Source: Sphingomonas asaccharolytica NBRC 15499 (lineage in GTDB: Bacteria; Pseudomonadota; Alphaproteobacteria; Sphingomonadales; Sphingomonadaceae). From it: DNA of 64,000 nucleotides. How positions within the stretch are numbered: position 1 is the stretch's first letter; each line of letters starts with the position of its first letter. A program made the translations under genes and the position numbers. Below are positions 18,773 to 54,035 of the stretch, one piece after another. Under the pieces are notes generated by a model that worked only from the letters and a program-made list of their open reading frames with translations, had not been told where the DNA came from and did no database searches. Location: contig NZ_BCYU01000019.1 of assembly GCF_001598355.1 (NCBI RefSeq), forward strand, positions 1-64,000, given 5' to 3'.

Positions 18773-20151
18773 GATTGTGGCCGCGGAACCTGCCTGGCCA
18801 GATGGCCGTGCTCGTCGCGGTCGCGCTGTTCGTCGCGCAGGCGATCAATTTCGGGTTGAGCCTGCGCGATCGCCAGACGTTCCGGCTGGAGCAGACCGTT
18901 GGGCCAGTCGTCGCACGCATCATCGACGCCTCGCAAGGACCGCGCGGCAGGCGCGACGAGCGGCAGCCGGATATAACGGCCGCACCGGCGTCAGCTGATG
19001 AGACTCCCTGGGACCGTTTCCGCTCGCACCCCTGGCCCTCCAATCCGATGCCGGCGGGCCTCGTGCGACAACCGGCGATCGAAGAGGCATTGCGCGCGCG
19101 ACTGGTCGAAGCGGGAATCCCGGTCGAGCAAGTCATCACCGGCGTCCGTCCGCTGCTGTCCAACGACCCGCGCTTCGCTAAGATGTCGCGCGTCCGTGCC
19201 CAGCGCTATCGCTTTGCCAAGAGCGAATTGCTGATCGCCGTCGAGCAGCCCAAGGTCGGCTGGTGGGCGGCAGCCAATCCGTGGCAGGATTCGGAATGGC
19301 CGTTCCTCTCGCGGCTGATCGGCCAGACGCTGGTGCTCTATGCAATCGTGCTGCTACCCGTGCTGCTGGCGACGCGGCGTATCGCGCAGCCGCTACGCTC
19401 GCTAGCGCGCGCCGCGCAACGCTATCATCCCGGCGAATCCGATGCCGCGATCCCGGAAAGCGGGCCGCACGATGTGCGTACGCTGATCGTCGCGTTCAAC
19501 GACTTGCGCACGCGCGTCAGCGCGATGTTGGAGGAAAAGGACCGCATGCTGGGCGCGATCGGGCACGATCTGCGCACGCCGCTGGCCGCTCTTCGCGTCC
19601 GCATCGAATCGGTTGAGGATGACGACGACCGCGCGCGCATGGCGGACACCATCGACGAGATGAACCGCACGCTCGACGACATATTGTCGCTGGCGCGGCT
19701 GGGGCGGCCGAGCGAGCAGGCGACCGAAGTCGACCTCGCCGCTTTGGTCGATGCGGTGGTCGAGGATTTCCGCGACCTCGGCATGCCGGTCGAGTTCACC
19801 GAGGTCGAACGGCTGACGATGCATTTGCGGCCGTCGCTGATGCGCCGAGCGATCCGCAATCTGATCGAAAATGCGGTCAAATATGGCGGCGGCGCGGACG
19901 TGTTCCTGAGGTCCGATGCCAAGACAGTCGAGATCGCGGTGTGCGACAACGGGCCTGGCGTCCCACCCGACCGCATCCCAGAGGTGTTCGAGGCATTCAC
20001 GCGGATCGAGGGATCGCGCAATAAGGAAACCGGCGGCATCGGCCTTGGCCTGGCGCTGGCGCGCGCTATCGTGCGCGAGGCGCGGGGCGATATCCGGCTG
20101 GAAAACCGTCCGGAAGGCGGCCTTGCCGCGACGATTACGCTGCCGCGTTAG
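18769..20151 (+). CDS. Sensor histidine kinase (EnvZ-like)
   Basis: A 460-residue membrane kinase. It has TM1 at about 10-30, a periplasmic loop of about 150 residues and TM2 at about 185-205 (LVLYAIVLLPVLLATRR). HAMP-like helices follow, then the HisKA motif GAIGHDLRTPLAALR with His266, and a HATPase domain with NLIENAVKYGG, DNGPGVP and GGIGLGLALARAI. It phosphorylates the regulator encoded just upstream, overlapping by 4 bp. At the other end it overlaps the converging sugar MFS gene tail to tail by 17 bp (20135-20151). The sensed signal is not apparent. Confidence 0.92.
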   Translation: MRLWPRNLPGQMAVLVAVALFVAQAINFGLSLRDRQTFRLEQTVGPVVARIIDASQGPRGRRDERQPDITAAPASADETPWDRFRSHPWPSNPMPAGLVRQPAIEEALRARLVEAGIPVEQVITGVRPLLSNDPRFAKMSRVRAQRYRFAKSELLIAVEQPKVGWWAAANPWQDSEWPFLSRLIGQTLVLYAIVLLPVLLATRRIAQPLRSLARAAQRYHPGESDAAIPESGPHDVRTLIVAFNDLRTRVSAMLEEKDRMLGAIGHDLRTPLAALRVRIESVEDDDDRARMADTIDEMNRTLDDILSLARLGRPSEQATEVDLAALVDAVVEDFRDLGMPVEFTEVERLTMHLRPSLMRRAIRNLIENAVKYGGGADVFLRSDAKTVEIAVCDNGPGVPPDRIPEVFEAFTRIEGSRNKETGGIGLGLALARAIVREARGDIRLENRPEGGLAATITLPR

Positions 20152-21634
20152 GCGCCACAGTAGGATCCTTCACCCGCAGCATTGCCAATGCAGCAAGCAC
20201 CAAAACGACCGCGCCGCACGCCATCGTCCAGACGGGTTCCCCCGGGAAGAACGTGCGAATGATCGCGCCCATCACCGTCGCGACCAGCAGTTGCGGCACC
20301 ACGATGAAGAAGTTGAAGATCCCCATATAGATGCCGAGCTTATGTTGCGGCAGCACGCCGGCCAGGATGACATAGGGCATGGTCAGAATCGAGGCCCAAG
20401 TGAAGCCGACCCCGATCATCGGCAGCAGCAACAATTGCTGATCGCGGATGACCAGCAGCGAGGCGAAGCTGACGGCGCCGATCACCAGGCACAGCATGTG
20501 AGTCTTCTGCGCGCCGATCCGTCTCGCAAGCACCGGCAGCACGAACGCGGCAAGCGCCGCGACGCCGTTATAGACCGAGAACAATACCCCGACCCAGTCG
20601 GCGCCATCATTGTACGCCTTGGCCGCGGTGTCAGTCGAATGGAACACGTATTGCGCCACCACTGGGGTGGTGTAGATCCACATGACGAACAGCGCGAGCC
20701 AGGAGAAGAACTGGACCAGCGCCAGCCGCTTCATCTGGTCGGGCATGCGCGATAGGTCGCTCATGATCTGGACGAGCGCGTTATCGCCGCCACCCCGCAC
20801 CATCGCGGCGGCGATCAAGCCGAGGACACCGAAAGCCGCGAGCGCGCCGCCCAGCACGTAGAGATCGCGTTCGAACGTGAACCACCAGACGCATGCGACA
20901 ACTGCCGAGCCTGCCAGCAACCACCACCAGCCACCGCGCGGCGCGATCGGCGTTTCATGCTCTCGCCCCGCATCGGCGTCGTCGAACGAGCGCATTTGCT
21001 CGGGCGAATATTCCCGCGTCGTCAGCACCGTCCACAGTACCGCCGCGAAAATCAATGCCGCACCGAGATAAAAGGCATAACGGACCGATTGCGGAATCTC
21101 GCCCGCGGGCGCGACGTTGCTGATCCCCAGCCTGGCCATGGCGAACGGCGCGAGGCTGCCGATCACCGCGCCGGCGCCGATGAATCCGGTCTGGAACGCA
21201 TAGCCCGCGGTACGCTGCGAAGGCGCGACCATGTCGCCGACGAACGCGCGAAACGGCTCCATCGATACGTTGATCGACGCGTCGAGCATCCACAGCAACA
21301 ACGCCGCCGCGAGCAACGTGGTCGCGTTAGGCATGCCGAGCAGCGCAAGCGCCGCGAGCAACGCTCCCGCCAGGAAATATGGCCGCCGCCGCCCGAACCG
21401 TCCCCAGGTGCGGTCGCTGAAATGGCCGATCAGCGGCTGCACGACGAGGCCGGTAACCGGCGCCGCGATGGCCAGCAACGCGAGGCTACCGACATCGCTT
21501 CCCAGTGTCTGAAAGATACGGCTGAGGTTGGCATTCTGCAGCCCGAACGCGATCTGGATGCCGAAGAAACCGAACGAAATGTTCCACAGCCCGCGCCAGG
21601 TCTGGCGCGGTTTCTCCACCGGAAGTCCGCTCAT
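20135..21634 (-). CDS. Sugar MFS transporter (SLC45/GPH-like), probable maltose/maltodextrin importer
   Basis: A 499-residue, 12-TM transporter of the sucrose/maltose-type MFS group. TM1 reads [25 protein letters not shown] and the TM2-3 loop [17 protein letters not shown], both typical of SLC45-like proton:disaccharide symporters. It begins with a 4-bp overlap (ATGA) at the end of the LacI gene, which fixes the start at 21634. Paired with a LacI regulator, TBDR, amylase and glucosidase, its likely job is inner-membrane uptake of maltose or short maltodextrins released in the periplasm. A similar MFS-LacI-TBDR layout is known from the Caulobacter maltose locus. Confidence 0.88.
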
Positions 21635-22662
21635 GCCCGGGGCGCCGTCGAGCGGCGAACGACTAAGCGTGGGGGCAGCATCGCCGCTTCGACCGATTGC
21701 GCGCGGATCTGGCGCAACAGCGTGTCGACCAAGGCCGCCCCGGCCTTGGCATAATCCTGGGCGATCGTGGTCAGCGGCGGGTGCGACAGGCTCGCCGCCG
21801 GGATATCGTCGAAGCCGACGATCGACACATCGCTCGGCACGTCGAGCCCTGCTTCCTCGAACGCTCGCATCGCGCCGATCGCGATCAAATCGCTGCCGGC
21901 GAAGACTGCGTCGAATGCCACGCCGCGCCGCAACAACTCGATCGCCGCTTCGTATCCCGACGCCTCGGTAGTGATGGCGTCGGCCTGCAATGCCGGATCG
22001 GGGTCGATGCCCGCCTCCAGCATCGCCGAACACGCGCCACGATAGCGGTCGGCGAGTTCAGGTGAGTGGCTGGACACTTGCCCCAGGAACGCGATCCGGC
22101 GGCATCCCAGCCCGATCAAATGCGCACTGGCGTCGCGCCCGCCGCGCACATTGTCGCAGCCGATCGTCGTGCCGGGCTGCCCGGTCTGGACCGAACCCCA
22201 GCGCACGAAGTGCGTCCCTTGCGCCTCGAGCTGTTCGAGCCGCGCCCGATAGGTCTCATAATCGCCATAGCCGAGCAGGATGATGCCGTCGGCCTTGTGG
22301 CTATCCTCATAATCGACGTGCCAGTTCGACGAGAGCTGCTGGAACGAGGTGAGCAGGTCATAGCCGCGCAGCGCGCAGGTCCGTGCGATCGACCCCAGCA
22401 TGGAGAGAAAGAACGGGTTGATCAGCGAATCGTCGGGGGTCGGATCCTCGAAGAACAGCAGCGCCAGCGTGTTGGTGTGTCGGCTGCGCAGCGAGGAGGC
22501 GTTCTTGTCGACCTTGTAGTTGAGTTGCGCGGCGATCGCTTCGATCCGTTTGCGCGTCGCTTCGCTGACGGTCGGGTCACCACGCAGCGCGCGCGACACG
22601 GTCGGTTGAGATACGCCCGCGCGTTGCGCGATATCGAAGGACGTCGGTTTGTCGGTTAGCAT
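21631..22662 (-). CDS. LacI family regulator, probable maltodextrin repressor
   Basis: A 343-residue LacI/GalR protein. The N-terminal HTH and hinge are SFDIAQRAGVSQPTVSRALRGD through NYKVDKNASSLRSRH, and the periplasmic-binding-like sugar domain contains VPSDVSIVGFDDIPAASLSHPPLTTIAQD. It would bind the 15-bp palindromic repeats found between it and the divergent TBDR (22852-22866 and 22952-22966) and release them on binding an inducer, most likely a malto-oligosaccharide. It is coupled to the MFS by a 4-bp overlap. I start it at 22662, where the HTH domain begins; the open frame runs much further upstream. Confidence 0.9.
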   Translation of the reverse strand: MLTDKPTSFDIAQRAGVSQPTVSRALRGDPTVSEATRKRIEAIAAQLNYKVDKNASSLRSRHTNTLALLFFEDPTPDDSLINPFFLSMLGSIARTCALRGYDLLTSFQQLSSNWHVDYEDSHKADGIILLGYGDYETYRARLEQLEAQGTHFVRWGSVQTGQPGTTIGCDNVRGGRDASAHLIGLGCRRIAFLGQVSSHSPELADRYRGACSAMLEAGIDPDPALQADAITTEASGYEAAIELLRRGVAFDAVFAGSDLIAIGAMRAFEEAGLDVPSDVSIVGFDDIPAASLSHPPLTTIAQDYAKAGAALVDTLLRQIRAQSVEAAMLPPRLVVRRSTAPRA

Positions 22663-22851: not shown

Positions 22852-22866
22852 CACATACGTATTCAG
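22852..22866. promoter_or_regulatory. LacI operator candidate 1
   Basis: CACATACGTATTCAG, containing the perfect 8-bp palindrome ATACGTAT. It is the exact reverse complement of the site at 22952. The centres of the two sites are 101 bp apart, close to an integral number of helical turns, which would allow repressor-mediated looping. Confidence 0.7.
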
Positions 22867-22951: not shown

Positions 22952-22966
22952 CTGAATACGTATGTG
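22952..22966. promoter_or_regulatory. LacI operator candidate 2
   Basis: CTGAATACGTATGTG, the inverted exact copy of the site at 22852. It lies 113 bp upstream of the TBDR start, a plausible promoter-proximal position. Confidence 0.7.
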
Positions 22967-23078: not shown

Positions 23079-25775
23079 ATGACTGCTTTCCGTTCGAACC
23101 GTCGTACCCAGCTTGCGCTTCGCGCAAGCGGCATCGCGCTTGCCGGCGCGCTGACGGTGATCGCGTCGCCAGCGCTCGCGCAGACGGCGCCGACTGCCGC
23201 GGCGCCGCAGGCCGACGATCAGGCAAACGCCGATACCGCTCAGGACATCGTCGTCAGCGGCTTCAGGGCCGCGCTGGCCAGCGCGACCGCGAAGAAGAAG
23301 TCTTCCGAACAGATCCTCGAATCGGTGTCGTCGGAAGATATCGGCAAGCTGCCCGATAACGGCATCGGCGAATCGATAGCGCGCTTACCCGGCGTTTCGG
23401 CTCAGCGCAGCGCCGGCCGAGCCAACGTCATCTCGATTCGCGGTTTCGGCCCCGACTTTTCCTCCACCACGCTGAACGGCCGTCAGCAGACGACGACCAA
23501 CGACAGCCGCGAGGTAGAGTTCGACCAATATCCGTCGGAAATTCTAGCCGGCGTCGACGTCTACAAGACTGCGGAAGCCGACAAGACCGCCGGCGGCCTG
23601 GTCGGCAGCATCGACCTGCGTACGGTCCGCCCGCTTGATTACGGCAAGCGCGTCATCGCGATCGGCGGGCGCGGCACCTATGTCGACCAGAAGCTGCAGC
23701 CCAGCTCGACCGACAAGGGCTTCCGCGCCTATGGCACGTTTATCGACACGTTTGCCGACGGCAAGGCCGGCATCGCACTGTCGGCCGCCTATACGGACGA
23801 GCCGTATCAAACCAAGGATTTCAACGCCTGGGGCTATGGCGGCTATCCAGGCGGCGCGTCGGGCATGAACGGTATCAAGTCCTGGTTCGAGTCGGATCGC
23901 CTCAAGCGCTTTGGGGCGAACGGCACATTTCAGGTCCGCCCCGACGACCATCTCACGATTACGATCGACGCTTTTTATTCGCGCTTTATCGACCGTATCG
24001 ACCAGCGTGGTTTCGAGATGCCGTTCAGCTGCGGCGGCGGCTGCGGCCATGATTCGATCTCGAACGTCACCGCGACCAATGGCCTGGTCACCGCCGCTAC
24101 GATCGCCGGCACGCCGCTGATCGAGAATTATGCCAACGACCGCGTCGCCAACCAATATTCGGTGGGTTGGAATGGCACCTGGAAGAACGACGCCGGCTGG
24201 CGCGTAATGGGCGACTTCAGTTGGTCCCGCACCGATCGCACCGATACTTCGCTGCAGACCACCGCCGGCCTCGGTCGCGCCCTGCCGAACCCGACCGCGA
24301 TCGTGTCTTACACGACCACGCCGACCGGTCCGCAATTCACGAGCAACTATAACGGCACCAGCTCGGCACTCGTGTTGACCGACGTCGAAGGCTGGAGCGG
24401 ATCGCCCGTCCAGGCCGGCTACAGCAATATCCGGGACACTAAGGACGATCTGATCGAGGCCAAAGCGGAGATCGAGAAGGAGATTGGCGGTTTCCTGAAA
24501 TCGGTGAAGCTGGGCGTCGACTATACGGGTCGCACCAAGACGCTGAGCGCGAACGAAGGCTATCTCAGCCCGCCCAACGGTGCCCTCACCGCGGCGATCC
24601 CGAGCAACCTGCTGCTCAAGCCGATCACGCTTGACCGCGGCCTCGGCAAGGTCATCGCCTATGATCCCCGCACCTTGGTGTCGAACGGCGTGCTCGTCTT
24701 CGTTCCGAACACTTTCGGCAGCACCAAGGGCTATAACATCGAGGAAGATGTCTGGACTCCCTATGCGATGGCCTCGCTCAATGGCGATCTCGGCGGCGCC
24801 AAGCTGACGGGCAATATCGGCGTTCAGGCGGTTCGCACCGACGTGGCGTCAGGCGGCCAGGCCTTTCCAACGATCAGGGACGGCTACTGGATGGTTCTGC
24901 CCAGCATGAACCTCAACCTTCGGACCGACAGCGACTTCGTCGTTCGTTTCGCCGTGTCGAAGGAAATGATGCGCGCGCGCATTCCCGACCTCAACAACGT
25001 GTTCTCGGTTGGCATCGATCGCGCCACGTTGGGAACGCCTTTCTACAACGGCAGCGGCGGCAATCCGCGTCTGCGCCCATACCAGGCATGGGCGTTCGAC
25101 CTGAACTTCGAAAAGTATTTTGGCGGCAAGGGCTACGTCGCTCTGCAGACCTTCTACAAGGATATTACCACCTACGTCGCCAGCGGCGTCATCCAGGGGT
25201 ATGACTATGCGGGCGTTCCGGGACTGCCGACGACTCCTCCGATTCCGACGACCACCGTGGGCTGGCTTTCCACCAGCGTGAACACGAAGGGCGGCTATAT
25301 GTACGGCGCGGAAGTCGCGGCGACCTTACCGTTCGAGGTGTTCTCGAGGGGGCTGACCGGGTTCGGCATTACCGCCGGCGGTGGCTATACCAAGACCAAG
25401 ATCGCCGATTTCTATGGCAAGCTGAGCGTGATCCCCGGCTATTCGAAGTGGGTGGGAGGCGTTACCGCTTTCTATGAACGCTACGGTTTCAACATTCGCG
25501 GCAGCATGCGCTACCGTTCGACCTATCTCGGCGACTTCACCCTCTATAGCGGCGGGCTCGATCGTCAGACGGTCCTCGGTGAGACGATCTACGATGCACA
25601 GGTCGGCTACGACTTCTCGTCGGGCGCGCTCAAAGGACTGTCGATCTATGTTCAGGGCCAGAACCTGACCGATACGCGATCGGCGACCTTGGGTATCGTC
25701 ACCCAGCCGCTCTCCTATCTGAAATATCAGTCTTATGGACGCCGGTTCGTTGCCGGGGCCACCTTCAAGTTCTGA
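23079..25775 (+). CDS. TonB-dependent receptor, probable maltodextrin receptor
   Basis: An 898-residue outer-membrane receptor. It has a signal peptide (MTAFRSNRRTQLALRASGIA..., cleavage after ALAQ), a TonB-box-like DIVVSGF, a plug with KLPDNGIGESIARLPGVSAQR and ISIRGFGPDFSSTTLNGRQ, and a barrel ending YGRRFVAGATFKF. The plug motif is that of the large alphaproteobacterial TBDR family that includes the maltodextrin receptor MalA of Caulobacter. The start at 23079 is supported by AAGGGGAGG. Two LacI-type operators precede it. A hairpin terminator follows within 11 bp, so the downstream halogenase-amylase-glucosidase genes probably depend on read-through or their own promoter. Confidence 0.93.
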   Translation: MTAFRSNRRTQLALRASGIALAGALTVIASPALAQTAPTAAAPQADDQANADTAQDIVVSGFRAALASATAKKKSSEQILESVSSEDIGKLPDNGIGESIARLPGVSAQRSAGRANVISIRGFGPDFSSTTLNGRQQTTTNDSREVEFDQYPSEILAGVDVYKTAEADKTAGGLVGSIDLRTVRPLDYGKRVIAIGGRGTYVDQKLQPSSTDKGFRAYGTFIDTFADGKAGIALSAAYTDEPYQTKDFNAWGYGGYPGGASGMNGIKSWFESDRLKRFGANGTFQVRPDDHLTITIDAFYSRFIDRIDQRGFEMPFSCGGGCGHDSISNVTATNGLVTAATIAGTPLIENYANDRVANQYSVGWNGTWKNDAGWRVMGDFSWSRTDRTDTSLQTTAGLGRALPNPTAIVSYTTTPTGPQFTSNYNGTSSALVLTDVEGWSGSPVQAGYSNIRDTKDDLIEAKAEIEKEIGGFLKSVKLGVDYTGRTKTLSANEGYLSPPNGALTAAIPSNLLLKPITLDRGLGKVIAYDPRTLVSNGVLVFVPNTFGSTKGYNIEEDVWTPYAMASLNGDLGGAKLTGNIGVQAVRTDVASGGQAFPTIRDGYWMVLPSMNLNLRTDSDFVVRFAVSKEMMRARIPDLNNVFSVGIDRATLGTPFYNGSGGNPRLRPYQAWAFDLNFEKYFGGKGYVALQTFYKDITTYVASGVIQGYDYAGVPGLPTTPPIPTTTVGWLSTSVNTKGGYMYGAEVAATLPFEVFSRGLTGFGITAGGGYTKTKIADFYGKLSVIPGYSKWVGGVTAFYERYGFNIRGSMRYRSTYLGDFTLYSGGLDRQTVLGETIYDAQVGYDFSSGALKGLSIYVQGQNLTDTRSATLGIVTQPLSYLKYQSYGRRFVAGATFKF

Positions 25776-25785
25776 TGACGCGATC

Positions 25786-25812
25786 CGCCTCGCCGGTTAG
25801 TCCGGCGAGGCG
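25786..25812 (+). terminator. Intercistronic terminator between TBDR and halogenase
   Basis: An 11-bp perfect stem CGCCTCGCCGG / CCGGCGAGGCG with loop TTAGT, followed by CTTTCG. It may limit read-through so that the receptor is made in excess of the downstream enzymes. Confidence 0.75.
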
Positions 25813-25834
25813 CTTTCGCTGATTAAGGCTGCAC

Positions 25835-27352
25835 ATGACTGATCCTACGCCCCTCGACATCGTCATCGCCGGCGGCGGGACAGCAGGATGGACGGCTGCC
25901 GCCATCCTCGCCCGCTTCCTTGGGAACCGTGCGACGATCACCCTGGTCGAATCCGATGCGATCGGCACAGTTGGTGTTGGCGAGGCGACGATCCCGCAGA
26001 TCCACAATCTGATCATCGGTCTCGGTTTGGACCAGGCCGATTTCCTGCGGCGGACCAATGCCACCTTCAAGCTGGGGATCGAGTTCAGCGACTGGCTGCG
26101 TCCCGGCCATCGTTACATCCACAGCTTCGGCCAGGTCGGGCGGGGCGTCGGCCTGATCCCGTTCCGCCAGCTCTGGCTGCGCGGCCGGCATCTCGGCGTC
26201 GCGGGCGATTATGGCGATTACAGCTATAATGTCGCCGCCACGCGCCTCGGACGGTTCGCGACGACTGACGGGCGCGACGGCAAGCCGACTGACCTCGCCT
26301 ACGCATATCATTTCGACGCCGCGCTGTTCGCGCAGATGCTACGCGATTACGCCGAAGAACGCGGCGTGCGGCGGGTTGAGGGGCTGATCGAACGGATCGA
26401 GCGCAACGGCGAAACGGGCGATATCCGCGCGCTCCGGCTCGACCGCGACCGCGAAATTGCCGGCTCGTTCTTCATCGACTGCACCGGCTTTCGCAGCCTG
26501 TTGCTCGGCGATGCGCTGGGCGTGCCATTCGTCGATTGGCGCCGTTTCCTCCCCTGCGACACCGCACTGGCGGTGCCGAGTGAAATGCGCGCCGAGCTGC
26601 GTCCCTACACCCAGTCGATGGCTCGCCCCGCCGGCTGGCAATGGCGCATCCCGCTGCAGCATCGCACCGGCAACGGCCATGTCTTCTGCTCGGCCTTCAT
26701 GTCGGTCGATGAGGCGAGCGAGTTGCTGCTCGCCAATGTCGAGGGCAAGCCGCTCGCCGATCCGCGCCCGATCCGATTCACCAGCGGACGCAGGCAGGAG
26801 TTCTGGTCGCATAATTGCGTCGCTTTGGGCCTCGCCGCGGGGTTCATGGAACCGCTCGAATCGACCAGTATCCACCTCGTCCAGTCGGGTCTCGGGCGCC
26901 TGCTCACCTTGCTGTCGGGCGACTTGTCGAACGTCGGCACGGCGCGCGACACGTTCAACCGCCTGTCGGTGATCGAGTGGCAGCGCATCCGCGACTTCAT
27001 CGTCCTGCATTATGTCGCCAATGACCGCACCGGCGAGCCGTTCTGGGACCATTGCCGCTCGATCGAGCTGCCCGCGACGCTAGCGGAAAAGATCGCCTTG
27101 TTCCGCGAAGCCGGCGCGTTCGTCCGCGAAGAGGAAGAGCTCTTCCTCGACGATAGCTGGGGCCAGGTAATGATCGGCCAGGGCATCATGCCGCAAAGCT
27201 GGTCGCCGCTCGCCGACAATGTTCCCGGGCAGGATGTCGGCCCCTTCCTCGATACGCTCGCCAAATCCTATCGCGTCAAGGCGGAGACGCTGCCCAGCCA
27301 TCGCGACTTCGTCACGTCGTTGACGGGCGACGCTCTGGAGAAACACGCATGA
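25835..27352 (+). CDS. Flavin-dependent tryptophan halogenase-like protein
   Basis: A 505-residue member of the flavin-dependent halogenase family. The FAD motif GGGTAGW is at 13-19, Lys79 sits in TFKLGIEF at the position of the catalytic lysine of PrnA, WQWRIPL matches the WxWxIP signature that excludes monooxygenase chemistry, and EPLESTS contains the Glu/Ser pair (PrnA E346/S347). All key residues are therefore present. It has no signal peptide. TBDR-linked halogenases of this type exist in Xanthomonas, Caulobacter and Brevundimonas; a few brominate indoles in vitro, but their natural substrate is unknown. Its stop overlaps the amylase start by 4 bp. Confidence 0.9.
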   Translation: MTDPTPLDIVIAGGGTAGWTAAAILARFLGNRATITLVESDAIGTVGVGEATIPQIHNLIIGLGLDQADFLRRTNATFKLGIEFSDWLRPGHRYIHSFGQVGRGVGLIPFRQLWLRGRHLGVAGDYGDYSYNVAATRLGRFATTDGRDGKPTDLAYAYHFDAALFAQMLRDYAEERGVRRVEGLIERIERNGETGDIRALRLDRDREIAGSFFIDCTGFRSLLLGDALGVPFVDWRRFLPCDTALAVPSEMRAELRPYTQSMARPAGWQWRIPLQHRTGNGHVFCSAFMSVDEASELLLANVEGKPLADPRPIRFTSGRRQEFWSHNCVALGLAAGFMEPLESTSIHLVQSGLGRLLTLLSGDLSNVGTARDTFNRLSVIEWQRIRDFIVLHYVANDRTGEPFWDHCRSIELPATLAEKIALFREAGAFVREEEELFLDDSWGQVMIGQGIMPQSWSPLADNVPGQDVGPFLDTLAKSYRVKAETLPSHRDFVTSLTGDALEKHA

Positions 27353-29184
27353 TCCGCCGCTCGCTGCTCACCGCCTTGCTCGCCGCCGCGTTGGTGCAGC
27401 CCGCCCTGGCGTCGCCGGAGACCGCCCCGACAACGGCGCCGGTCACCGACTATCGCGATCGCCTGCCCGAGGACGAAGTGATCTATTTCGTGCTTCCCGA
27501 CCGGTTCGAGAATGGCGATTCAAAGAACGACACGGGCGGCCTCAAAGGCGACCGGCTCGTCACCGGCTTCGACCCGACCGCCAAGGGTTTCTATCACGGC
27601 GGCGACCTCAGGGGGTTGCTCAAGCGGATCGACTATATCCAGGCGCTAGGCGCGACCGCGATCTGGGTCGGGCCGATCTTCAAGAACAAGCCCGTCCAGG
27701 GACCCAAGGGCAACGAAACCGCCGGTTATCACGGCTATTGGATCACCGACTTCACCCGGGTCGATCCGCATTTTGGCACCAATGCCGACTTCAAGGCCCT
27801 GGTCGACGCAGCGCATGCGCGTGGGATGAAAGTCTATATGGACATCATCGCCAACCACACCGCGGACGTGATCAAATATCGCGAATGCGAGGCGGACAAG
27901 CCCTGCGCGTACCGCAGCCGCGCCGACTATCCGTACACCCGCAAGGGCGGCCTCAGCGGTCCGGCGATCAACCCTGGTTTCCTCGGGGATAGCGTCGCCA
28001 CATCGAAGAATTTCGCCAAGCTGGCCGATCCGAACTGGGCCTACACCCCTTATCTCCCCAAGGGTGAGGAGAAGGCAAAGGTGCCCGCCTGGCTCAACGA
28101 CCCGATCTATTACCACAATCGCGGCGATTCGACCTTCTCGACCGAGGATTCGCAGCTCGGCGACTTCTCCGGCCTCGACGATCTGATGACCGAGAATCCG
28201 CGCGTGATTGCGGGGATGATCGACATTTTCGGCAAGTGGATCGACGATTTCGGAATCGACGGATATCGCATCGACACCGCGCAGCATGTCGACCCCGCCT
28301 TCTGGCAGGCGTTCGTCCCTGCGATGCTCGCCCGCGCCAAGGCCAAGGACATTCCCAACTTCCATATCTTCGGGGAGGTCTTCACCGGCGACCTCGACGT
28401 CGCCCGGCTCGCGGCGCACACCAGGGTCGACAAGCTCCCCGCCGTGCTCGACTTTGCGTTCGAGCGCGCGGTGGCCGACACCGTCGCGCGCGGCGCCCCG
28501 ACGGGCGAATTGTTCCACTTGTTCTTCGGCGACCCCGCTTATGCGAATGGCGAGGCGACCGCGCGGACATTGCCGACCTTCCTCGGCAATCACGACATGG
28601 GTCGCTTCTCGATGTTCGTGAAAGCGGGCATGCCGCAGGCGAGCGACGACGAGGTCCTCAAGCGCGTCATCCTCGGCCATGCCATGCTGCTGACGCTGCG
28701 CGGCGTGCCGACGATCTATTATGGCGATGAACAAGGCTTCGTCAGCAAGGGCAACGACCAGCTGGCACGCGAGGACATGTTCGGCAGCAAGGTCGCGGTG
28801 TATAACGACACCAAGTTGCTCGGCACGACCAAGACGACCGCGACGCCGAGTTTCGGTACCGATAACCCGATCTTCAAGACGATCGCCGAGCTCGCCCGCA
28901 TCCGTACTAGCCACCATGCGCTGACCCGGGGGCGCCAGGTGCCGCGCGCTTGGGGCGACAGACCGGGCCTGTTCGCCGTGTCGCGGTTCGATCCCGATAC
29001 CGGCAAGGAAGTGCTGATCGCGTTCAACACCTCGACCGTGCCGCTGACCGCCAACGTGCTGGTCGACGACACATCCGCCGCTTTCACCGCGCTCCGTGGC
29101 GCGTGCGAAGCCAAAGCCACCGCGCCGGGTAGCCTCAAGGTCAGCCTCGCCCCTCTCGACTTCATCATTTGCGAGGCCCAGTGA
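27349..29184 (+). CDS. Secreted alpha-amylase family protein (GH13)
   Basis: A 611-residue GH13 hydrolase with a signal peptide (MIRRSLLTALLAAALVQPALA). The four conserved regions are present: DIIANH (region I), GYRIDTAQH with nucleophile Asp309, FGEV with acid/base Glu343 and FLGNHD with Asp416. The N-terminal EVIYFVLPDRFENGD is typical of bacterial periplasmic alpha-amylases. It would cut alpha-1,4-glucan or maltodextrin in the periplasm after TBDR uptake. ATGA overlap with the halogenase upstream and GTGA overlap with the glucosidase downstream show tight translational coupling of all three. Confidence 0.93.
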   Translation: MIRRSLLTALLAAALVQPALASPETAPTTAPVTDYRDRLPEDEVIYFVLPDRFENGDSKNDTGGLKGDRLVTGFDPTAKGFYHGGDLRGLLKRIDYIQALGATAIWVGPIFKNKPVQGPKGNETAGYHGYWITDFTRVDPHFGTNADFKALVDAAHARGMKVYMDIIANHTADVIKYRECEADKPCAYRSRADYPYTRKGGLSGPAINPGFLGDSVATSKNFAKLADPNWAYTPYLPKGEEKAKVPAWLNDPIYYHNRGDSTFSTEDSQLGDFSGLDDLMTENPRVIAGMIDIFGKWIDDFGIDGYRIDTAQHVDPAFWQAFVPAMLARAKAKDIPNFHIFGEVFTGDLDVARLAAHTRVDKLPAVLDFAFERAVADTVARGAPTGELFHLFFGDPAYANGEATARTLPTFLGNHDMGRFSMFVKAGMPQASDDEVLKRVILGHAMLLTLRGVPTIYYGDEQGFVSKGNDQLAREDMFGSKVAVYNDTKLLGTTKTTATPSFGTDNPIFKTIAELARIRTSHHALTRGRQVPRAWGDRPGLFAVSRFDPDTGKEVLIAFNTSTVPLTANVLVDDTSAAFTALRGACEAKATAPGSLKVSLAPLDFIICEAQ

Positions 29185-30800
29185 ACGACGCCGCCCGCCT
29201 GCCCTCCGTCCAGACCACGCGCGAATGGTGGCGCGGGGCGGCGATCTATCAAATCTATCCGCGCAGCTTCGCCGACACCAATGGCGACGGTATCGGCGAC
29301 TTGCCGGGCATCACCGCGCATCTCGACCATGTCGCCAGCCTGGGCGTCGACGCGATCTGGCTGTCGCCCTTCTTCACCTCGCCGATGCTCGATTTCGGTT
29401 ACGACGTAGCAGATTATTGCGATGTCGATCCGATCTTCGGCACCCTCGCCGATTTCGACGCCTTGGTCGCCCGCGCGCACGCGCTCGGGCTCAAGGTACT
29501 GATCGATCAGGTCTATTCGCACAGCAGCGATCGCCACCCCTGGTTCCTCGAGAGCCGCACCGACCGCACCAACCCGAAAGCAGATTGGTATGTCTGGGCC
29601 GATGCCCGTCCCGACGGCACGCCGCCCAACAATTGGCAGTCGGTGTTCGGCGGCCCCGCCTGGACGTGGAGCGCGCCGCGGCGGCAATATTACATGCACA
29701 ATTTCCTGCCCGAACAACCTCAGCTGCATATGCATCTGCCGGCGGTTCAGGACGCGATGCTCGACGTCGCGAAATTCTGGCTCGATCGCGGGGTCGATGG
29801 CTTCCGCATCGACGCGATCAACTTTTCGATGCACGATCCCGCTTTGACCGACAACCCGTCAGCCCCGCCGGGTCCGCGCACGCGGTCGTTCGATTTCCAG
29901 CTGCATGTCCACAACCAGAGCCAGCCGGAAATCCCGGCGTTCCTCGAGCGGCTCCGCGCCCTGCTCGACCGCTACGGCGCGACCTTCACGGTGGCGGAGG
30001 TCGGCGGCCCCAGCCCCGAGGCCGAGATGCACGCCTTCACCCAGGGCGATCGCCGGCTCAATTCGGCCTATGGCTTCAATTTCCTCTATGCCGACAAGCT
30101 GACGCCGGCATTGGTCCGCGACGCGCTCGCGCAATGGCCCGATACGCCCGGCACCGGCTGGCCGAGTTGGGCATTCGAGAATCACGATGCGCCGCGCGCG
30201 ATCTCGCGCTGGGCCGCGCCCCAGCATCGCGACGCCTTTGCGCGGATGAAGCTGATGCTGCTCGTCTCGCTGCGCGGCAATATTTTCCTCTATAATGGCG
30301 AAGAGCTGGGCCTCACTCAGGTCGATATCCCGTTCGAAGCGCTGCGCGATCCCGAGGCGATCGCCAACTGGCCGCTGACGCTGTCGCGCGACGGCGCGCG
30401 GACGCCGATGCCTTGGCGCGGAGACGCCAACGACCATGCCGGGTTCAGCTCCGGCGCGCCCTGGTTGCCGATCGGTGCCGACCACCTTGCGCTGGCGGTC
30501 GACCGCCAGAATCAGGACCCGCAATCGTTGCTCAACCTGACCCGACATTTTCTCGCATTCCGCCACGCGAGCGATGCGCTGATGCGGGGCGACGCCCACG
30601 TGATCGAAGCGAGTGAGACGGTCCTGGCGATCGAACGGTCGGCGGCCGACGAGACCATGCTGTGCGTGTTCAACATGTCGCCCGAACCGGTCGACTGGCG
30701 CCCTGCCCAACCCGATCGCTGGCGCGTGGAGGACACCGTCGGCGAAGTGATCGACTGGCGATTCGGTGGCTATGCGGCGACGATCGCCCGCCGGATATAG
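29181..30800 (+). CDS. Alpha-glucosidase (GH13, oligo-1,6-/maltase type)
   Basis: A 539-residue GH13 enzyme opening with WWRGAAIYQIYPRSFADTNGDGIGD, a hallmark of the oligo-1,6-glucosidase/alpha-glucosidase subfamilies. Region II is DGFRIDAIN (nucleophile Asp211), region III AEVGG (Glu273) and region IV FENHDAPRA (Asp336). There is no signal peptide, so it acts in the cytosol on maltose or maltodextrins brought in by the MFS. The start is GTG at 29181, overlapping the amylase stop (GTGA) with GAGG upstream; a TTG at 29169 is less likely. It ends the maltodextrin operon. Confidence 0.92.
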   Translation: MNDAARLPSVQTTREWWRGAAIYQIYPRSFADTNGDGIGDLPGITAHLDHVASLGVDAIWLSPFFTSPMLDFGYDVADYCDVDPIFGTLADFDALVARAHALGLKVLIDQVYSHSSDRHPWFLESRTDRTNPKADWYVWADARPDGTPPNNWQSVFGGPAWTWSAPRRQYYMHNFLPEQPQLHMHLPAVQDAMLDVAKFWLDRGVDGFRIDAINFSMHDPALTDNPSAPPGPRTRSFDFQLHVHNQSQPEIPAFLERLRALLDRYGATFTVAEVGGPSPEAEMHAFTQGDRRLNSAYGFNFLYADKLTPALVRDALAQWPDTPGTGWPSWAFENHDAPRAISRWAAPQHRDAFARMKLMLLVSLRGNIFLYNGEELGLTQVDIPFEALRDPEAIANWPLTLSRDGARTPMPWRGDANDHAGFSSGAPWLPIGADHLALAVDRQNQDPQSLLNLTRHFLAFRHASDALMRGDAHVIEASETVLAIERSAADETMLCVFNMSPEPVDWRPAQPDRWRVEDTVGEVIDWRFGGYAATIARRI

Positions 30801-37922: not shown

Positions 37923-37982
37923 CCGATGAGCCGCCTGTGACGGTTGGACGGATTTGCGCACAACTACCGGCGGGAGGGAGAG

Positions 37983-39530: not shown

Positions 39531-39606
39531 CACCCAGGGACGCCGGGCCGGCGCGACCGATCGCCCGGGCCCTTTCGACCATTGATCCATCGAAGAAGGA
39601 CCTACC

Positions 39607-47245: not shown

Positions 47246-48257
47246 AGCTGGGTACCGGCTATACCGCATTCGAGGCGAGAACACCCATTCGCATCACATC
47301 TGCCGTCGAATGACGCCCGGGAAGCTTGACGATCTCCGACCGGGCGTGGCGGCCAACCTTGCCGGTCGAAACCGCTGCGCCCCTTCTCTCCCCAACGCCC
47401 AGCATCTCTAGTCAACATACTGTCACGCTAAACATGTTCGCGCTGTTGGAATGATGGCATGCCTTCTCCTGCAATCCGCGCCGCGACACTATAGTATCGA
47501 CCAGCCATCGCGAGCGGCCGCCTCAGTGATTCGGCAATGCGCCACGTCGCAGGTCGCTTTCAAACTGCTTATGGTCGTAAAGCGCCCAACCAATGCTGGT
47601 CGATCAGCATTTGTGGAAAATGTTGCGAAACGGACTCCGCATTCGCAAGGCGGCTTACAGGTTAATAGAGCGGACCAAGCGCTCGGCTATGTGGCAATTT
47701 TTCGCCAAATTTCGTGGATTCCGCCAAGGCAATACATGGACGGCGCGGCAAAATTGTGTCGTTTTATAAGTAGTGGTGAAGTCACACCGTCCTTTGCAGG
47801 CCGGAAGGATGACGAACCATATTTGGGAGAGATGATGCCGATCAGAGCAACGCCTCCCCTTTGCCATTTGAAATGGAGGGTCGAGGAATGACTATTGACC
47901 ATGAGATGACCGGCACATGCGCTCCAGCGCTGGTGCGCGACTTTCTCTGCTCCGCCCAAATCAAATTCGACCCGCAAGGGCTAGTTTCAAAACAGGCGGC
48001 GTCAATTTTCATACCTAAAATTGGTAGCGGTACCAACAACAAATATTGCGGCCGCAGGCAGTCGAAACGCCGGCTGCGATCGAGCCCGGCCAGCTCCAGG
48101 CTCGCTGCCCGCAGCGGGTGAAGGATCCTCGCAGCAAGCATCGCCTGATCGCTGCGGACGCGAACGGGGTGCCAGCGAAATCTGGGCGGTTCGCGCCCGC
48201 GCCAACGACGTCCGCGAAGATAAGACGTCCTATGAAAAACATGAACGGGAGGGGCAG
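47246..48257. promoter_or_regulatory. 1-kb regulatory gap between LytS and the TBDR
   Basis: No convincing gene; a 146-codon open frame at 47451-47891 lacks a coding look and a ribosome site. Signals seen are a 13-bp palindrome CCATTTGAAATGG (47864-47876) and the LacI-like operator at 48022-48035. The stretch is less GC-rich than the window average. It should hold promoters for the kinase (leftward) and TBDR (rightward). Confidence 0.6.
48022..48035. promoter_or_regulatory. Xyl-box-like operator upstream of the TBDR
   Basis: TGGTAGCGGTACCA, within the 16-bp inverted repeat TTGGTAGCGGTACCAA (48021-48036). It matches the palindromic xyl-box form TGGTAGCGCTACCA except at one central base. It lies 222 bp before the TBDR start. 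Confidence 0.6.
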
Positions 48258-51200
48258 ATGAAAACACGTAACCTGATGATCGAAGCCAGTATTTCGGCGC
48301 TGATCCTTGCAAGCTTTAGCGTGGTGGCAACGCCGGCATGGGCACAGGATGCGGGAGCAAAGAGCTCCGACGATGCCCCAGCGGCCAAGCCCGCTAAGGC
48401 GAAAGATCAGGGCGACGACGTCGCGACCGACATTATCATCACCGCGCGCCGCAAGGCGCTGGCGGATGCGATCTCCATCAAGAAGAACTCAGACACTATC
48501 GTCGACTCGGTGACCGCGGACGAAGCGGGCAAGCTTCCGGACAATTCGATCACCGAAGTCCTTCAGCGCGTGCCCGGCGTGTCGATCTCGCGCTTCACCG
48601 GCGTCAATGGCGGCAACACCGCATTCCAGATCGAAGGTTCGGGTATCACCGTGCGCGGTCTGCCCTTCAATTCGAGCATGCTTAACGGCCAGCAATTGTT
48701 CAGCGCCAACGGCGCGAGCGCCATCAGCTGGAACGAAGTCACGCCCGAATTGATGGCGGGGGTTGATGTCTACAAAGCGACGCGCGCCGACATCATTGAA
48801 GGGGGCGCGTCCGCGATCGATCTTCGCACGCATGTGCCGTTCGATTTCAAGGATACGCAGTTCAACATCACCGCGGGCGGCAGCTACGGCACCCAGGTGA
48901 AAAAGGGTTCGCCCCGCATTTCCGCGATGTTCTCCAAGCGTTTCGATACCGGTATCGGGGAAATTGGCGTGTTGTGGGATTTCGCCTTCAGCCGCCTCTA
49001 TCAGCAGAGCAGCGACTTGGCGGTTGGCGCGATGTTCGCCCAATATACTCCGACCGCCACGCGCAGCGATGGCCTCGCCTTTGTTCCTAGCTCATTCAAC
49101 TGGAGCACCACCGAGAACAAGCGAGACCGGTACGGCGCCTATCAGGCCATTCAGTGGAAGCCGGCCTCGAACCTCACGCTGACCAACACCGTGTTCTTCT
49201 CGCAATATATCGAACATAGCCAGGGAAACGGTGGCTCCGTGGGAGCGAACCCATCCGCAGCAGCTGTGCTCATGCCGATGGTTGGCAGTCCGGTTCAATA
49301 TGATGCCAACGGCGCCTTCAACAAGGGAATCCTCACGGTTGGGTCCACTGGCAATTCGGTGGAGTTCACAAACACAACCACCCACACTAGTTGGCTGGAC
49401 CCCAAGTACCAGATCGACTGCGGTTCCACCTATGGCGCGCCCGCATCATCGATTCAGTGGGATTGGTCGCCGAATCCTCCAATTCTGGCGCAATGCGGCC
49501 CCTACGCCACGTTGAATCCCAGCGGTTCGGCGAACGCCTCGCACACCAAGAATTCCACGCTGGATATTTCGCAGAGCTTCGTCTGGACTCCTGGGGACAG
49601 GGTGGCCGTACGAGGCGGCGTGCAATATGTCAGTTCGCGCTCGGCCGGGCAGCAAATATATATCGGTCTCAATCAGAGCAGCCCGCTGGTCAAATCGGTC
49701 AACGTCGACCTTACCGGTTCCCTGCCGAACTTGTCCGGCCTGTCCACTACCCGCATTCTTGATCCGAACACAGCGTACTTGGCGCAGTTCGGCTATCACG
49801 AGCCCAAGAATAAGGGGACGATGCTTGCCGGCCATCTCGACCTTGAATATCGGGTCAGTGACAACGGGTTCCTGCGCAGCATCACTGTTGGCGCTCGTGC
49901 CGCCAGGCGCACCGAAAAAGACAATTTCGTGGGGACCTATTATGCGCCGCTGGGTCAGTCCTGGCTATCGAATCCGTGGGGTCCACATGTAGGCAATCCG
50001 ACATTTGGCCCGGGAAATATTCAATATCTCAATAATCCTAATGTTCCCAAGTCCGATTATCAAGTTGCCACCTTCAGGAATTTCTTCGGTGGTCAAGTGT
50101 CGGTTCCATCGAATCTCTTAGTCGCCAGCAATTCTCTCCTGCAGAGCTATGACTGGTACCATTTGCTCACGACCTATAACAATCAAATTCCTAACGGTAC
50201 TCGGGATCAGTATTGGACAGCTGATATAGATCAAGGTCTTAACAAGACCGATAGCCGCATAATGAATATGGCCGTCTATGTAGAGGCCAGGTTCGCGCAT
50301 GATCGTATCGGTTTCATTCCGGCCTTTTCGGGTAATATCGGTGTGCGCGTATTCCACGATTCGCTGCGGGCAAACGCCCTACTGGGAACGCCGAACGCTT
50401 CAAACCTTGCTCTGACCGAGGCGGACAGCACTGCATATTTCAACGCGGGCCGACCGGGTGCCACGACACCATATCCGACGCTCTATGGTTTTACACTAGC
50501 TTACTTCCCGCAGACCCGAGATTATAGTTACACGCGCGCTCTGCCTTCGTTCAACATTAAGTTCGATGCATCCGACAAGTTCAAGATTCGTGGTGCGGCA
50601 TCGATCTCATCTTCGCCGCCCAACCTCAACGACATTCGCCCCGGTGGATCGATCAGTGCCAGGACGCTCCCTAACCCCACCAATTCGTCGGCACCTTCAA
50701 TTCTCACGGGCGTTGTCGTCAATGGCGGCGGCACGAACCTCAAGCCGACGATGATCAAGAGCGAAGATCTGACGTTTGAATACTATCCATCGTCTTCCAG
50801 CTTCTTCTACATTGATTTCTTCGCCAAGCAGATCAAGGACGAACCGATATTTTATTCGTTCGTCATCAACCCTCTTCCTACGCCGTTGAAAGCATATGCC
50901 AATGGCGCGACGCCGCCCGCTGCGGGGCAACCTCCAAGCCCGAACATCACGGATACGAGCCTGAATCTTCCGTGGGTCTTTCTGCAGAACAAGTCGTCGA
51001 CGCAAACCGCTTACATCAAGGGCGTCGAGATTGGCGGCCGCAAGTTCTTCGATAAACTGCCGGGCGTGCTTCGCGGGCTGGGCATCGACGCCAACCTGAC
51101 CTTCATCGATAGCAGCAACCCTGCCCAGCAGGCTAACAATGTATTGACTACGCCGCCGGCCGGCGGCCTCCTTCCAGGCCTCAATCCGGACGGCTCAGTG

Positions 51201-51644
51201 CCGCAGACTTATCCCAACCTTCCTTATGCCGGATTGTCGAAATGGGCCTACAACATCCAGCTGCTGTACAGCCGCGGCAAGGTCAATTTCCGTCTGGCAT
51301 ACAATTGGCGCGACAAGGCGTTGCTGTCGACCAACGTCAATCCGCTGTCTTATGCGACCAGCGGCGGCAACCCTTACACGCTCAATACCAGCCCGACCAA
51401 CTTCGACGCGACCCATTCCTATCCCGTGTACAACATGGTTCCGGCCTACATGGCAGCCGCAGGCTACCTGGACATGGGTTTCGACTTCGCGGTGAATAAG
51501 AATGTGTCCGTTTCATTCAATGCGAACAACCTTCTCAACACGGTTTCGCGAACCCTTCAGGAGCCTGTGCCTGGCGTGTTCCAGCCGTACGACTATAACG
51601 TCAGCGACCGGCGCTTCGACCTCACCGTTCGGGTGCGCTTGTGA
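48258..51644 (+). CDS. TonB-dependent receptor, hemicellulose-oligosaccharide type
   Basis: A 1128-residue receptor, larger than usual. It has a signal peptide (MKTRNLMIEASISALILASF..., cleavage after AWAQ), a TonB-box-like DIIITARRK, and a plug with SVTADEAGKLPDNSITEVLQ and the VPGVSISRF motif. The long barrel ends RRFDLTVRVRL. The plug motif groups it with the maltodextrin-type receptor at 23079. The start at 48258 follows GGGAGGGG. It probably imports oligosaccharides released from the polysaccharide treated by the neighbouring glycosidases. The middle part (about 50.0-50.9 kb) is clearly less GC-rich than the flanking genes. A strong terminator follows before the halogenase gene. Confidence 0.93.
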   Translation: MKTRNLMIEASISALILASFSVVATPAWAQDAGAKSSDDAPAAKPAKAKDQGDDVATDIIITARRKALADAISIKKNSDTIVDSVTADEAGKLPDNSITEVLQRVPGVSISRFTGVNGGNTAFQIEGSGITVRGLPFNSSMLNGQQLFSANGASAISWNEVTPELMAGVDVYKATRADIIEGGASAIDLRTHVPFDFKDTQFNITAGGSYGTQVKKGSPRISAMFSKRFDTGIGEIGVLWDFAFSRLYQQSSDLAVGAMFAQYTPTATRSDGLAFVPSSFNWSTTENKRDRYGAYQAIQWKPASNLTLTNTVFFSQYIEHSQGNGGSVGANPSAAAVLMPMVGSPVQYDANGAFNKGILTVGSTGNSVEFTNTTTHTSWLDPKYQIDCGSTYGAPASSIQWDWSPNPPILAQCGPYATLNPSGSANASHTKNSTLDISQSFVWTPGDRVAVRGGVQYVSSRSAGQQIYIGLNQSSPLVKSVNVDLTGSLPNLSGLSTTRILDPNTAYLAQFGYHEPKNKGTMLAGHLDLEYRVSDNGFLRSITVGARAARRTEKDNFVGTYYAPLGQSWLSNPWGPHVGNPTFGPGNIQYLNNPNVPKSDYQVATFRNFFGGQVSVPSNLLVASNSLLQSYDWYHLLTTYNNQIPNGTRDQYWTADIDQGLNKTDSRIMNMAVYVEARFAHDRIGFIPAFSGNIGVRVFHDSLRANALLGTPNASNLALTEADSTAYFNAGRPGATTPYPTLYGFTLAYFPQTRDYSYTRALPSFNIKFDASDKFKIRGAASISSSPPNLNDIRPGGSISARTLPNPTNSSAPSILTGVVVNGGGTNLKPTMIKSEDLTFEYYPSSSSFFYIDFFAKQIKDEPIFYSFVINPLPTPLKAYANGATPPAAGQPPSPNITDTSLNLPWVFLQNKSSTQTAYIKGVEIGGRKFFDKLPGVLRGLGIDANLTFIDSSNPAQQANNVLTTPPAGGLLPGLNPDGSVPQTYPNLPYAGLSKWAYNIQLLYSRGKVNFRLAYNWRDKALLSTNVNPLSYATSGGNPYTLNTSPTNFDATHSYPVYNMVPAYMAAAGYLDMGFDFAVNKNVSVSFNANNLLNTVSRTLQEPVPGVFQPYDYNVSDRRFDLTVRVRL

Positions 51645-51658
51645 CGGTCTGAACGGGG

Positions 51659-51685
51659 ACGGGCGCTTCCTCGGGAAGCGCCCGT
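51659..51685 (+). terminator. Intercistronic terminator between TBDR and halogenase 2
   Basis: A 12-bp perfect stem ACGGGCGCTTCC / GGAAGCGCCCGT with a TCG loop, followed by TCTCTTTCG. It is in the same position relative to the TBDR/halogenase pair as the hairpin at 25786-25812. Confidence 0.85.
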
Positions 51686-51835
51686 TCTCTTTCGAACACA
51701 GTGCTGCGGCCGATTCATGCCCGGTCGTTTGTCACAGACACAGCCGGTTGGCACGCGCCTTGACCGACATATAACCACCGTACGCCTGAAGCCCCATTCG
51801 GCAGGCACCGGGTACGTTCATGGCGAGACATGTTT

Positions 51836-53353: not shown

Positions 53354-53372
53354 CCAAGTGAGGCTTGCGCTG

Positions 53373-53981
53373 ATGAAATTGCAGAACAAGTTTATGAGGA
53401 TCGTCGTGAACATTGATGGAAAGATCCAGTTCGTGGCGCTGGGATGCGCCGCCCTTCTGAGCCTGCAAGCGGGTAGCGCCAACGCGAAGGACGCGGCGCC
53501 GCGCGTCGTATGGGGCAAGGCCGGCGTCAGCTCCGAGCTATATCATGACGATGCTTTGGCCTGCGGGATGAATGGCCTGGCCAGCAACATCGACAATACA
53601 AAGGAAGTGAAGACGTTGGCGCGCGCGTCGCAGCAGTTGGAAGGTATCGACGCCAGCGCTCAGGCCTCTATCGGCACGGCGATCGGTCCGACGGGGCAGC
53701 CCGACCCGGTATCGGGCGCCGAGAATAGAGCCATTCAGGAACAGGGGATCATCGCCGCCGCCAGACCCGACAAGCAATATGCAGGTATCAAGGAAACGAT
53801 GTTCCAAGTCGTGCGTCGCTGCATGATCGACCGCGGCTATGCCAAGATCGTTCTGACCGAAAATCAGCGCAAGCACTATGACGGGCTCAAGGGCGGAGCC
53901 AATGCGCGGCGCGCCTATATCCACGAACTGGCCAGCGATCCGCACGTGCTGGCAACGCAGCGCGAGGCGGCTGCACAGTAG
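53373..53981 (+). CDS. Small exported protein of unknown function
   Basis: I do not recognise a family. The 202-residue product has an N-terminal hydrophobic export signal (FVALGCAALLSLQAGSANA) and a soluble mature part with two cysteines, one in LACGMNG and one in RRCMIDRGYAKI. A Cys...CMxxRGY arrangement is common in small periplasmic proteins of alphaproteobacteria and could form a disulphide. It follows the halogenase gene by 19 bp and precedes the GH2 gene by 54 bp, so it is probably co-transcribed with both. The start is uncertain (53358, 53373 or 53394); GTGAGG supports 53373. Confidence 0.7.
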   Translation: MKLQNKFMRIVVNIDGKIQFVALGCAALLSLQAGSANAKDAAPRVVWGKAGVSSELYHDDALACGMNGLASNIDNTKEVKTLARASQQLEGIDASAQASIGTAIGPTGQPDPVSGAENRAIQEQGIIAAARPDKQYAGIKETMFQVVRRCMIDRGYAKIVLTENQRKHYDGLKGGANARRAYIHELASDPHVLATQREAAAQ

Positions 53982-54035
53982 ATCGTCGACGCAACGTTAG
54001 GCCGCAGCGCTGATCAGCATGCCTGGAGGAAACAA

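Follow-up and report, generated by a model that had tools for sequence, protein, structure and literature searches.

A halogenase gene in a predicted MalA-type maltodextrin locus of Sphingomonas asaccharolytica: common, optional and apparently closest to the outer-membrane receptor

What does a halogenase do in an operon of starch-degrading enzymes, and to which of its neighbours does it belong? The question is raised by a 64,000-nucleotide stretch of S. asaccharolytica NBRC 15499 (NZ_BCYU01000019.1, positions 1 to 64,000; our contig C19 of a 4.6 Mb genome), referred to here as the window. An initial annotation, made from the letters of the window, had held that the halogenase must be made with the starch-degrading enzymes, and that its substrate may be a molecule linked to glycan uptake and not free tryptophan.

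The locus and its halogenase gene

Six genes make up the locus: an MFS transporter and a LacI-family regulator on the minus strand, followed by a TonB-dependent receptor, the halogenase (HAL) and two GH13 enzymes (GH13A and GH13B) on the plus strand. The sugar transporter gene (20135..21640, start approximate) matches PF07690 at 1.7e-26 and the sucrose/proton symporter model TIGR01301 at 1e-24, which is below the cut-off of that model; the regulator gene (21631..22650) carries PF00356 and PF13377 and matches several LacI-family NCBIfam models, all under cut-off. The receptor gene (23079..25775) scores 480 bits with TIGR01782, the cut-off being 310, and has a PF07715 plug. Its start was placed at the ATG at 23079 for the purine-rich stretch ahead; a longer open reading frame begins at 22962. 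The AlphaFold model of the receptor (pLDDT 80) has TonB-dependent transporters as its best Foldseek matches, which confirms the fold only. Further downstream lie the amylase GH13A (27349..29184; PF00128, 1e-62), whose N-terminus resembles a signal peptide as judged by eye, and the glucosidase-like enzyme GH13B (29181..30800; PF00128, 2e-113). With a TIGR01782 receptor, a LacI regulator, an MFS transporter and GH13 enzymes side by side, this is a predicted MalA-type maltodextrin locus.

The HAL gene (25835..27352, plus strand) is an open frame of 505 amino acids and a full-length match to Pfam PF04820, with positions 1-457 of 458 of the profile covered (1.9e-173). All the catalytic-type residues listed in the initial annotation are intact, namely GGGTAGW at 13-19, K79, GWQWRIP at 267-273 (WxWxIP at 268-273), and EPLESTS at 339-345 with E342/S343. 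K79, E342, S343 and GWQWRIP are identical in 89/89 HALs labelled mal, and 17 of the 20 motif positions counted are invariant in the same 89, the exceptions being T16, A17 and S345. The closest solved chains are 9luq, 6y1w (Xcc4156) and 6frl (BrvH). Judged from its sequence, HAL belongs to the indole-type (Xcc4156/BrvH) group of flavin-dependent halogenases.

Both overlaps described at the outset are present: the HAL stop and the GH13A start share ATGA at 27349-27352, and the GH13A stop and the GH13B start share GTGA at 29181-29184. The first junction measures −4 in 53/66 loci and −1 in 7/66, where the in-frame ATG closest to the end of HAL was taken as the start, a choice that favours short distances; the second measures −4 in 57/81 loci and −1 in 10/81. 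For comparison, the stop of the other halogenases of these loci reads ATGA in 22/70. In the six pairs computed, dN/dS was 0.07-0.17 for HAL, in the same range as that of the GH13 genes (0.07-0.22).

Distribution of HAL among loci with the GH13 genes

A halogenase scan returned at least 576 relatives, of which the best 80 were kept; the HAL of S. pruni NBRC 15498 shows 94% identity. Most of them lie in loci of the same make-up, and the 80 loci lean to the mal group because the best 80 of at least 576 were taken. As this first locus set was picked by halogenase similarity, the survey was repeated from the amylase side on 59 genomes of the family, one per genus. The amylase was present in 25 of the 59; in 17 of these, among them the genome of the window, HAL lay directly upstream of it. 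Three more (G053, G010 and G033) have a rearranged locus with a halogenase next to the receptor; G038 has a halogenase about 3 kb from GH13B, with no receptor, and the best HAL match of that genome is some 27 kb off; in G025 the stretch is cut by a contig end; and in G001, G043 and G046 no halogenase was found in the amylase stretch. HAL matches at E < 1e-160 occurred in 18/25 genomes with the amylase and in 0/34 without it, which rules out a random pairing of the two.

The amylase was also found in 11/60 genomes of another family in this class. Five of the loci (L190, L191, L192, L193 and L196) have HAL adjoining the receptor, and in L200 it lies about 2 kb from the receptor on the opposite strand; HAL was not found in four receptor-bearing loci (L194, L195, L198 and L199), and the stretch of L197 begins at a contig edge. 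Over the phylum, the amylase was detected at E < 1e-120 in only 5 of 200 sampled genomes.

Some genomes with no HAL in the locus carry PF04820 genes elsewhere: seven in G043, nine in G300 (L194) and three in G290 (L195), the last lying 15-20 kb from the locus on the same contig. Help in trans is therefore possible there. In G001, G289 (L198), G314 (L199) and G046 no PF04820 match was seen at E up to 1e-30. No receptor was seen in the amylase stretch of G046; G001, G289 and G314 have the receptor, GH13A and GH13B. Since genomes with receptor and GH13 genes exist in which the locus holds no HAL, HAL is common but optional. The tie to the amylase operon proposed initially is thus borne out as regards the conserved pairing and overlap, but not as an obligatory link. 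By comparison among genomes, HAL is taken to be a long-standing but optional member of the predicted locus.

The receptor as the partner of HAL

HAL is found above the score limit in 96 of 101 loci; L031, where it is cut by a contig end, is among the rest. Within 400 bp of HAL the receptor is present in 87/96 loci and GH13A in 72/96. The receptor adjoins HAL and GH13A does not in 18 loci: ten have GH13A elsewhere in the stretch, and in eight it was undetected, GH13B following HAL directly in four of these. It should be noted that for five of these 18 loci the count refers to a second halogenase, which is convergent with the receptor. The reverse situation, with GH13A but not the receptor adjoining HAL, was met in three loci: two have split receptor frames, and the third is at a contig edge.

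Other PF04820 genes point in the same direction. The genome of the window has nine of them in seven receptor neighbourhoods, all within 8 kb (the farthest at about 7.4 kb), in the company of GH13, GH2, GH97 with Cupin_8, SapC with Cupin_8, aldose epimerase and other genes. Only one of the nine lies beside this GH13 pair; a GH13B-like gene (46%) also occurs about 4 kb from the GH97 and Cupin_8 cluster. As the other PF04820 genes stand in receptor neighbourhoods without this GH13 pair, their common partner is the receptor. Of 15 genomes in the order, eight have TIGR01782 receptors (E to 1e-90) and five have PF04820 matches (E to 1e-30), the five all belonging to those eight; outside the genome of the window, 16/16 PF04820 matches, in four genomes, lay within 7 kb of a TIGR01782 receptor.

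Several further features of this genome may be recorded here. A second receptor-halogenase-GH2 cluster occupies 48021-56471 of the window, all on the plus strand: a TonB-dependent receptor (48021..51644; PF07715, PF00593; TIGR01782 422 bits), an adjoining PF04820 halogenase (51830..53353; 546 bits, 44% identical to HAL) and a GH2 enzyme (54036..56471; PF02836, PF18565, PF02837). The small open reading frame between the last two (53358-53981) has no Pfam match at 1e-5 and may be spurious. The window is rich in sugar enzymes, with two alpha-L-fucosidase-family genes and one GH42-family gene at 33859-35508 and 37944-41685. On contigs C6 and C29 (L090, L091 and L144), 3/3 Cupin_8 genes are near receptor genes, two of the three immediately adjoining PF04820 genes. 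Of the two SapC genes, one is likewise near receptor and PF04820 genes, and the other is on contig C48.

A FastTree tree of 132 halogenases, with several long branches, was used to place the HAL proteins. A group of 59 rows (support 80) unites 57 of the 63 rows labelled mal with L062 and L138, which come from mal loci, and contains no solved protein. It sits in a fork of 68 rows (support 99), together with a set of four rows (Xcc4156, 9luq and two halogenases of SapC/Cupin_8 loci) and five Maricaulis and Erythrobacter-type rows, of which two bear the mal label. That leaves four mal-labelled rows (L037, L088, L124 and L125), which are placed elsewhere. The mal label requires 7 changes on the tree; with shuffled labels the average is 44. 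The main HAL was chosen automatically by score, and in L037, L058, L076, L088, L125 and L138 a second, more distant halogenase was taken; of these six loci only L125 belongs to the set of 68 loci analysed below. The sole halogenase in the L124 stretch is placed outside the mal group. A second, distant halogenase lies downstream of GH13B in many mal loci (a clade of 32 rows), preceded by a GH97 gene in both cases examined (L014:14980-18565 and L023:14771-18480). Of the 68 extra halogenases with a residue at the position of S343, 46 have A.

Protein distances were then compared between genes (mirror-tree) in the 68 of 101 loci that have all six genes, the others being left out. The partial correlation of HAL was 0.48 with the receptor, 0.25 with GH13B, 0.13 with GH13A, 0.06 with MFS and 0.04 with LacI; in the 55 non-redundant loci the values were 0.46, 0.17, 0.13, 0.04 and 0.08, respectively. 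The receptor has no partner besides HAL above 0.12. In the permutation test, p was 0.001 for HAL-receptor, 0.002 for HAL-GH13A and 0.001 for HAL-GH13B with 68 loci, and 0.001, 0.015 and 0.009 with the non-redundant loci; HAL-LacI and HAL-MFS failed the test. As HAL-GH13A and HAL-GH13B both pass, the tie of HAL to the GH13 enzymes is weaker, not absent. Other adjacent pairs co-vary too (LacI-MFS 0.55, GH13A-GH13B 0.39), so that linkage may explain part of the HAL-receptor signal. HAL touches both the receptor and GH13A, however, and the contrast of 0.48 with 0.13 is therefore informative. In an exploratory region-wise analysis along the receptor, the correlation was 0.30-0.58 throughout, with no single hot spot.

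Individual locus pairs illustrate this tie. Between the Qipengyuania loci L023 and L050, HAL is 54% and the receptor 46% identical, the values for GH13A, GH13B, LacI and MFS being 80, 77, 75 and 70%. Between the Tsuneonella loci L024 and L072, the figures are 55% for HAL and 49% for the receptor, against 73-79% for the other four genes. In both pairs the identity climbs again once roughly 60 aligned residues of GH13A have been passed. HAL and receptor were thus exchanged together inside otherwise conserved loci. Two comparisons speak against strict pairing: the receptors of L050 and L085 are 41% identical and their HALs 75%, and the receptor of the window is 70% identical to that of L009, the five other genes reaching 92-98%. 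The window receptor has a dS of about 1.0 with L009 and L010, the HAL, GH13A and GH13B genes 0.41-0.57; it looks as if this receptor had been replaced alone or were under separate pressure.

Taken together, these comparisons indicate that the closest partner of HAL, in evolution and in synteny, is the outer-membrane receptor rather than the overlapping GH13 enzymes, although the overlap with GH13A in 53/66 loci also speaks for a tie to the amylase. The assertion that HAL must be made with the starch-degrading enzymes cannot be upheld in that form: HAL tracks the receptor more than the amylase, and is missing from several mal loci.

Expression, function and known systems

The region ahead of the receptor and the gap behind it bear on expression. 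Only two exact copies of ATACGTAT exist in the window (22855..22862 and 22956..22963), both between LacI and receptor. At least one copy is present in 50/59 divergent LacI-receptor regions, at a density of 1.56 per kb inside these regions versus 0.014 per kb outside, about 110-fold lower. ATACGTAT is thus a likely candidate for the LacI operator of the locus. Between the receptor stop and the HAL start lies a GC-rich hairpin with an 11-bp stem (25786..25812, plus strand; z = −3.2). This gap (25776-25834 in the window) folds at less than −10 kcal/mol in 82/83 loci, a figure to be read in the light of the easy folding of GC-rich DNA; relative to dinucleotide-shuffled sequences, 63/84 loci have a z below −2. 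Among relatives the structure is kept and the sequence differs, and some of the hairpins resemble terminators with a T run. The hairpin is likely a partial terminator or a protector of the mRNA 3' end. Transcription of the operon may start at the receptor promoter, controlled by the adjacent LacI protein, and only part of the transcripts may pass the hairpin into HAL; HAL and the GH13 enzymes would then arise from read-through, at a lower level and in small amounts.

With modest confidence, we favour the reading that HAL is an optional accessory halogenase of the receptor module, acting on an aromatic group and thereby tuning uptake. Most probably it would halogenate (or oxidise) an aromatic group on something of that module, which may be the receptor chain itself, a peptide-like ligand or a receptor-bound ligand, and the effect would be to tune uptake, not to break down sugar.

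In a possible but unlikely alternative, the target of HAL is a small molecule connected with glycan uptake, such as a surface, siderophore-like or phenolic compound, as first suggested. The conserved overlap with GH13A (−4 in 53/66 loci) and the existence of a mal group in the halogenase tree would agree with this, and import or sensing of such a molecule by the receptor is conceivable; the relatives of HAL in receptor loci with other enzyme contents argue against it.

The receptor chain as target would fit the co-evolution of HAL and receptor, and a footprint of the modified site was sought. No aromatic residue separates the 96 HAL-linked receptors from the eight MalA-type receptors without adjacent HAL, and six of the eight retain both conserved Trp positions. 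W478 of the receptor is invariant in the 96 HAL-linked mal receptors, yet is W in 6/8 without adjacent HAL as well; it was rejected as a footprint and is likely a sugar contact. Y201 (937-aa numbering) was also rejected: in a wider set it is Y in 10/14 HAL-linked receptors (3 F, 1 N) and in 5/29 others, although the genome of the window has Y in all four of its HAL-linked receptors besides that of the mal locus. Given the lack of a footprint and the genomes without PF04820, a receptor modification, if it exists, is non-essential to the locus and leaves no detectable trace. We therefore regard as unlikely the stronger proposal that the receptor itself is the HAL substrate, modified before export, and that HAL, with the Cupin_8 and SapC proteins of the sister loci, belongs to a receptor-tailoring family in Sphingomonadales and relatives.

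It is less probable still that HAL is no halogenase in the cell and uses the same pocket as a flavin monooxygenase or oxidase on a receptor-linked substrate. HAL has weak similarity, far below the cut-offs, to the NCBIfam models of QhpG, which acts on a protein, and of LodB, whose model name carries the label maturase. The native substrates of the relatives of HAL are given as unknown in the available text of PMC7336383 and PMC5945002. Set against this are the invariant Lys, Glu/Ser and WxWxIP, and the halogenation of indole or its derivatives reported there for BrvH and the Xanthomonas enzymes. That HAL is a passenger hitchhiking in the operon, with no role in uptake, is very improbable: it is dispensable in three genomes with the receptor and the GH13 pair, but its dN/dS (0.07-0.17), its grouping in the tree, the conservation of its catalytic residues and its retention beside the receptor tell against this. 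A free-tryptophan halogenase of a secondary-metabolite pathway, suggested by the PF04820 family name, is hardly credible, as the relatives BrvH and Xcc4156 are reported inactive on free tryptophan (PMC8269204 and PMC7336383, parts available) and the HAL-BrvH alignment, on which this point rests, is gap-free where RebH has the tryptophan-covering loop.

The halogenase group and the mal locus are each already known. A search of open-licence literature by title and start of abstract, in which subscription journals are mostly missing, returned no paper on halogenases in receptor-linked sugar loci. A Xanthomonas N-acetylglucosamine locus and regulon databases reportedly list such halogenase genes, which the literature search did not confirm. 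Halogenase and receptor transcripts are both noted in PMC11337851, unlinked in the text seen. The native substrate of indole-type bacterial halogenases is treated as an open question in the literature (PMC5945002 and PMC7336383, in part), and the evolutionary tie of HAL to the receptor points to where a natural substrate could be sought. This question can be put to the test in a conserved locus that probably serves transport, has a probable regulator and has natural relatives that lack HAL. We know of no precedent for the halogenation of a nutrient receptor; if the receptor were the target, this would be a new kind of envelope modification.

Among known systems, the Xanthomonas MalA maltodextrin (CUT) locus resembles that of the window in its receptor, regulator, sugar transporter and alpha-glucosidases, and its make-up is partly conserved in the Caulobacter mal locus (PMC1790865, main text). 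In contrast to the window, no word beginning with 'halogen' occurs in that main text. BrvH has the same catalytic residues as HAL and brominates indole; its loop is short, and by alignment to BrvH the long tryptophan-covering loop is absent from HAL as well. In the accessible part of the same report (PMC5945002), the authors liken its open substrate site to that of the peptide-acting MibH and doubt indole as its natural substrate, the native one being unknown. MibH is a peptide tryptophan halogenase whose substrate is a lanthipeptide (PMC8269204, in part), and is likened to HAL here by description only. In the available portions of these sources, BrvH and the Xanthomonas enzymes are set apart from the tryptophan halogenases (PMC8269204), and no native substrate is known for BrvH or for three Xanthomonas enzymes (PMC7336383). 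BrvH is farther from HAL in the tree than 9luq and Xcc4156, which belong to the same flavin-dependent halogenase group (495.8 and 453.8 bits to HAL) and share the 68-row fork, although they stand outside the 59-row mal group. It is their branch that holds the two halogenases found beside SapC and Cupin_8 genes in this genome and in G063.
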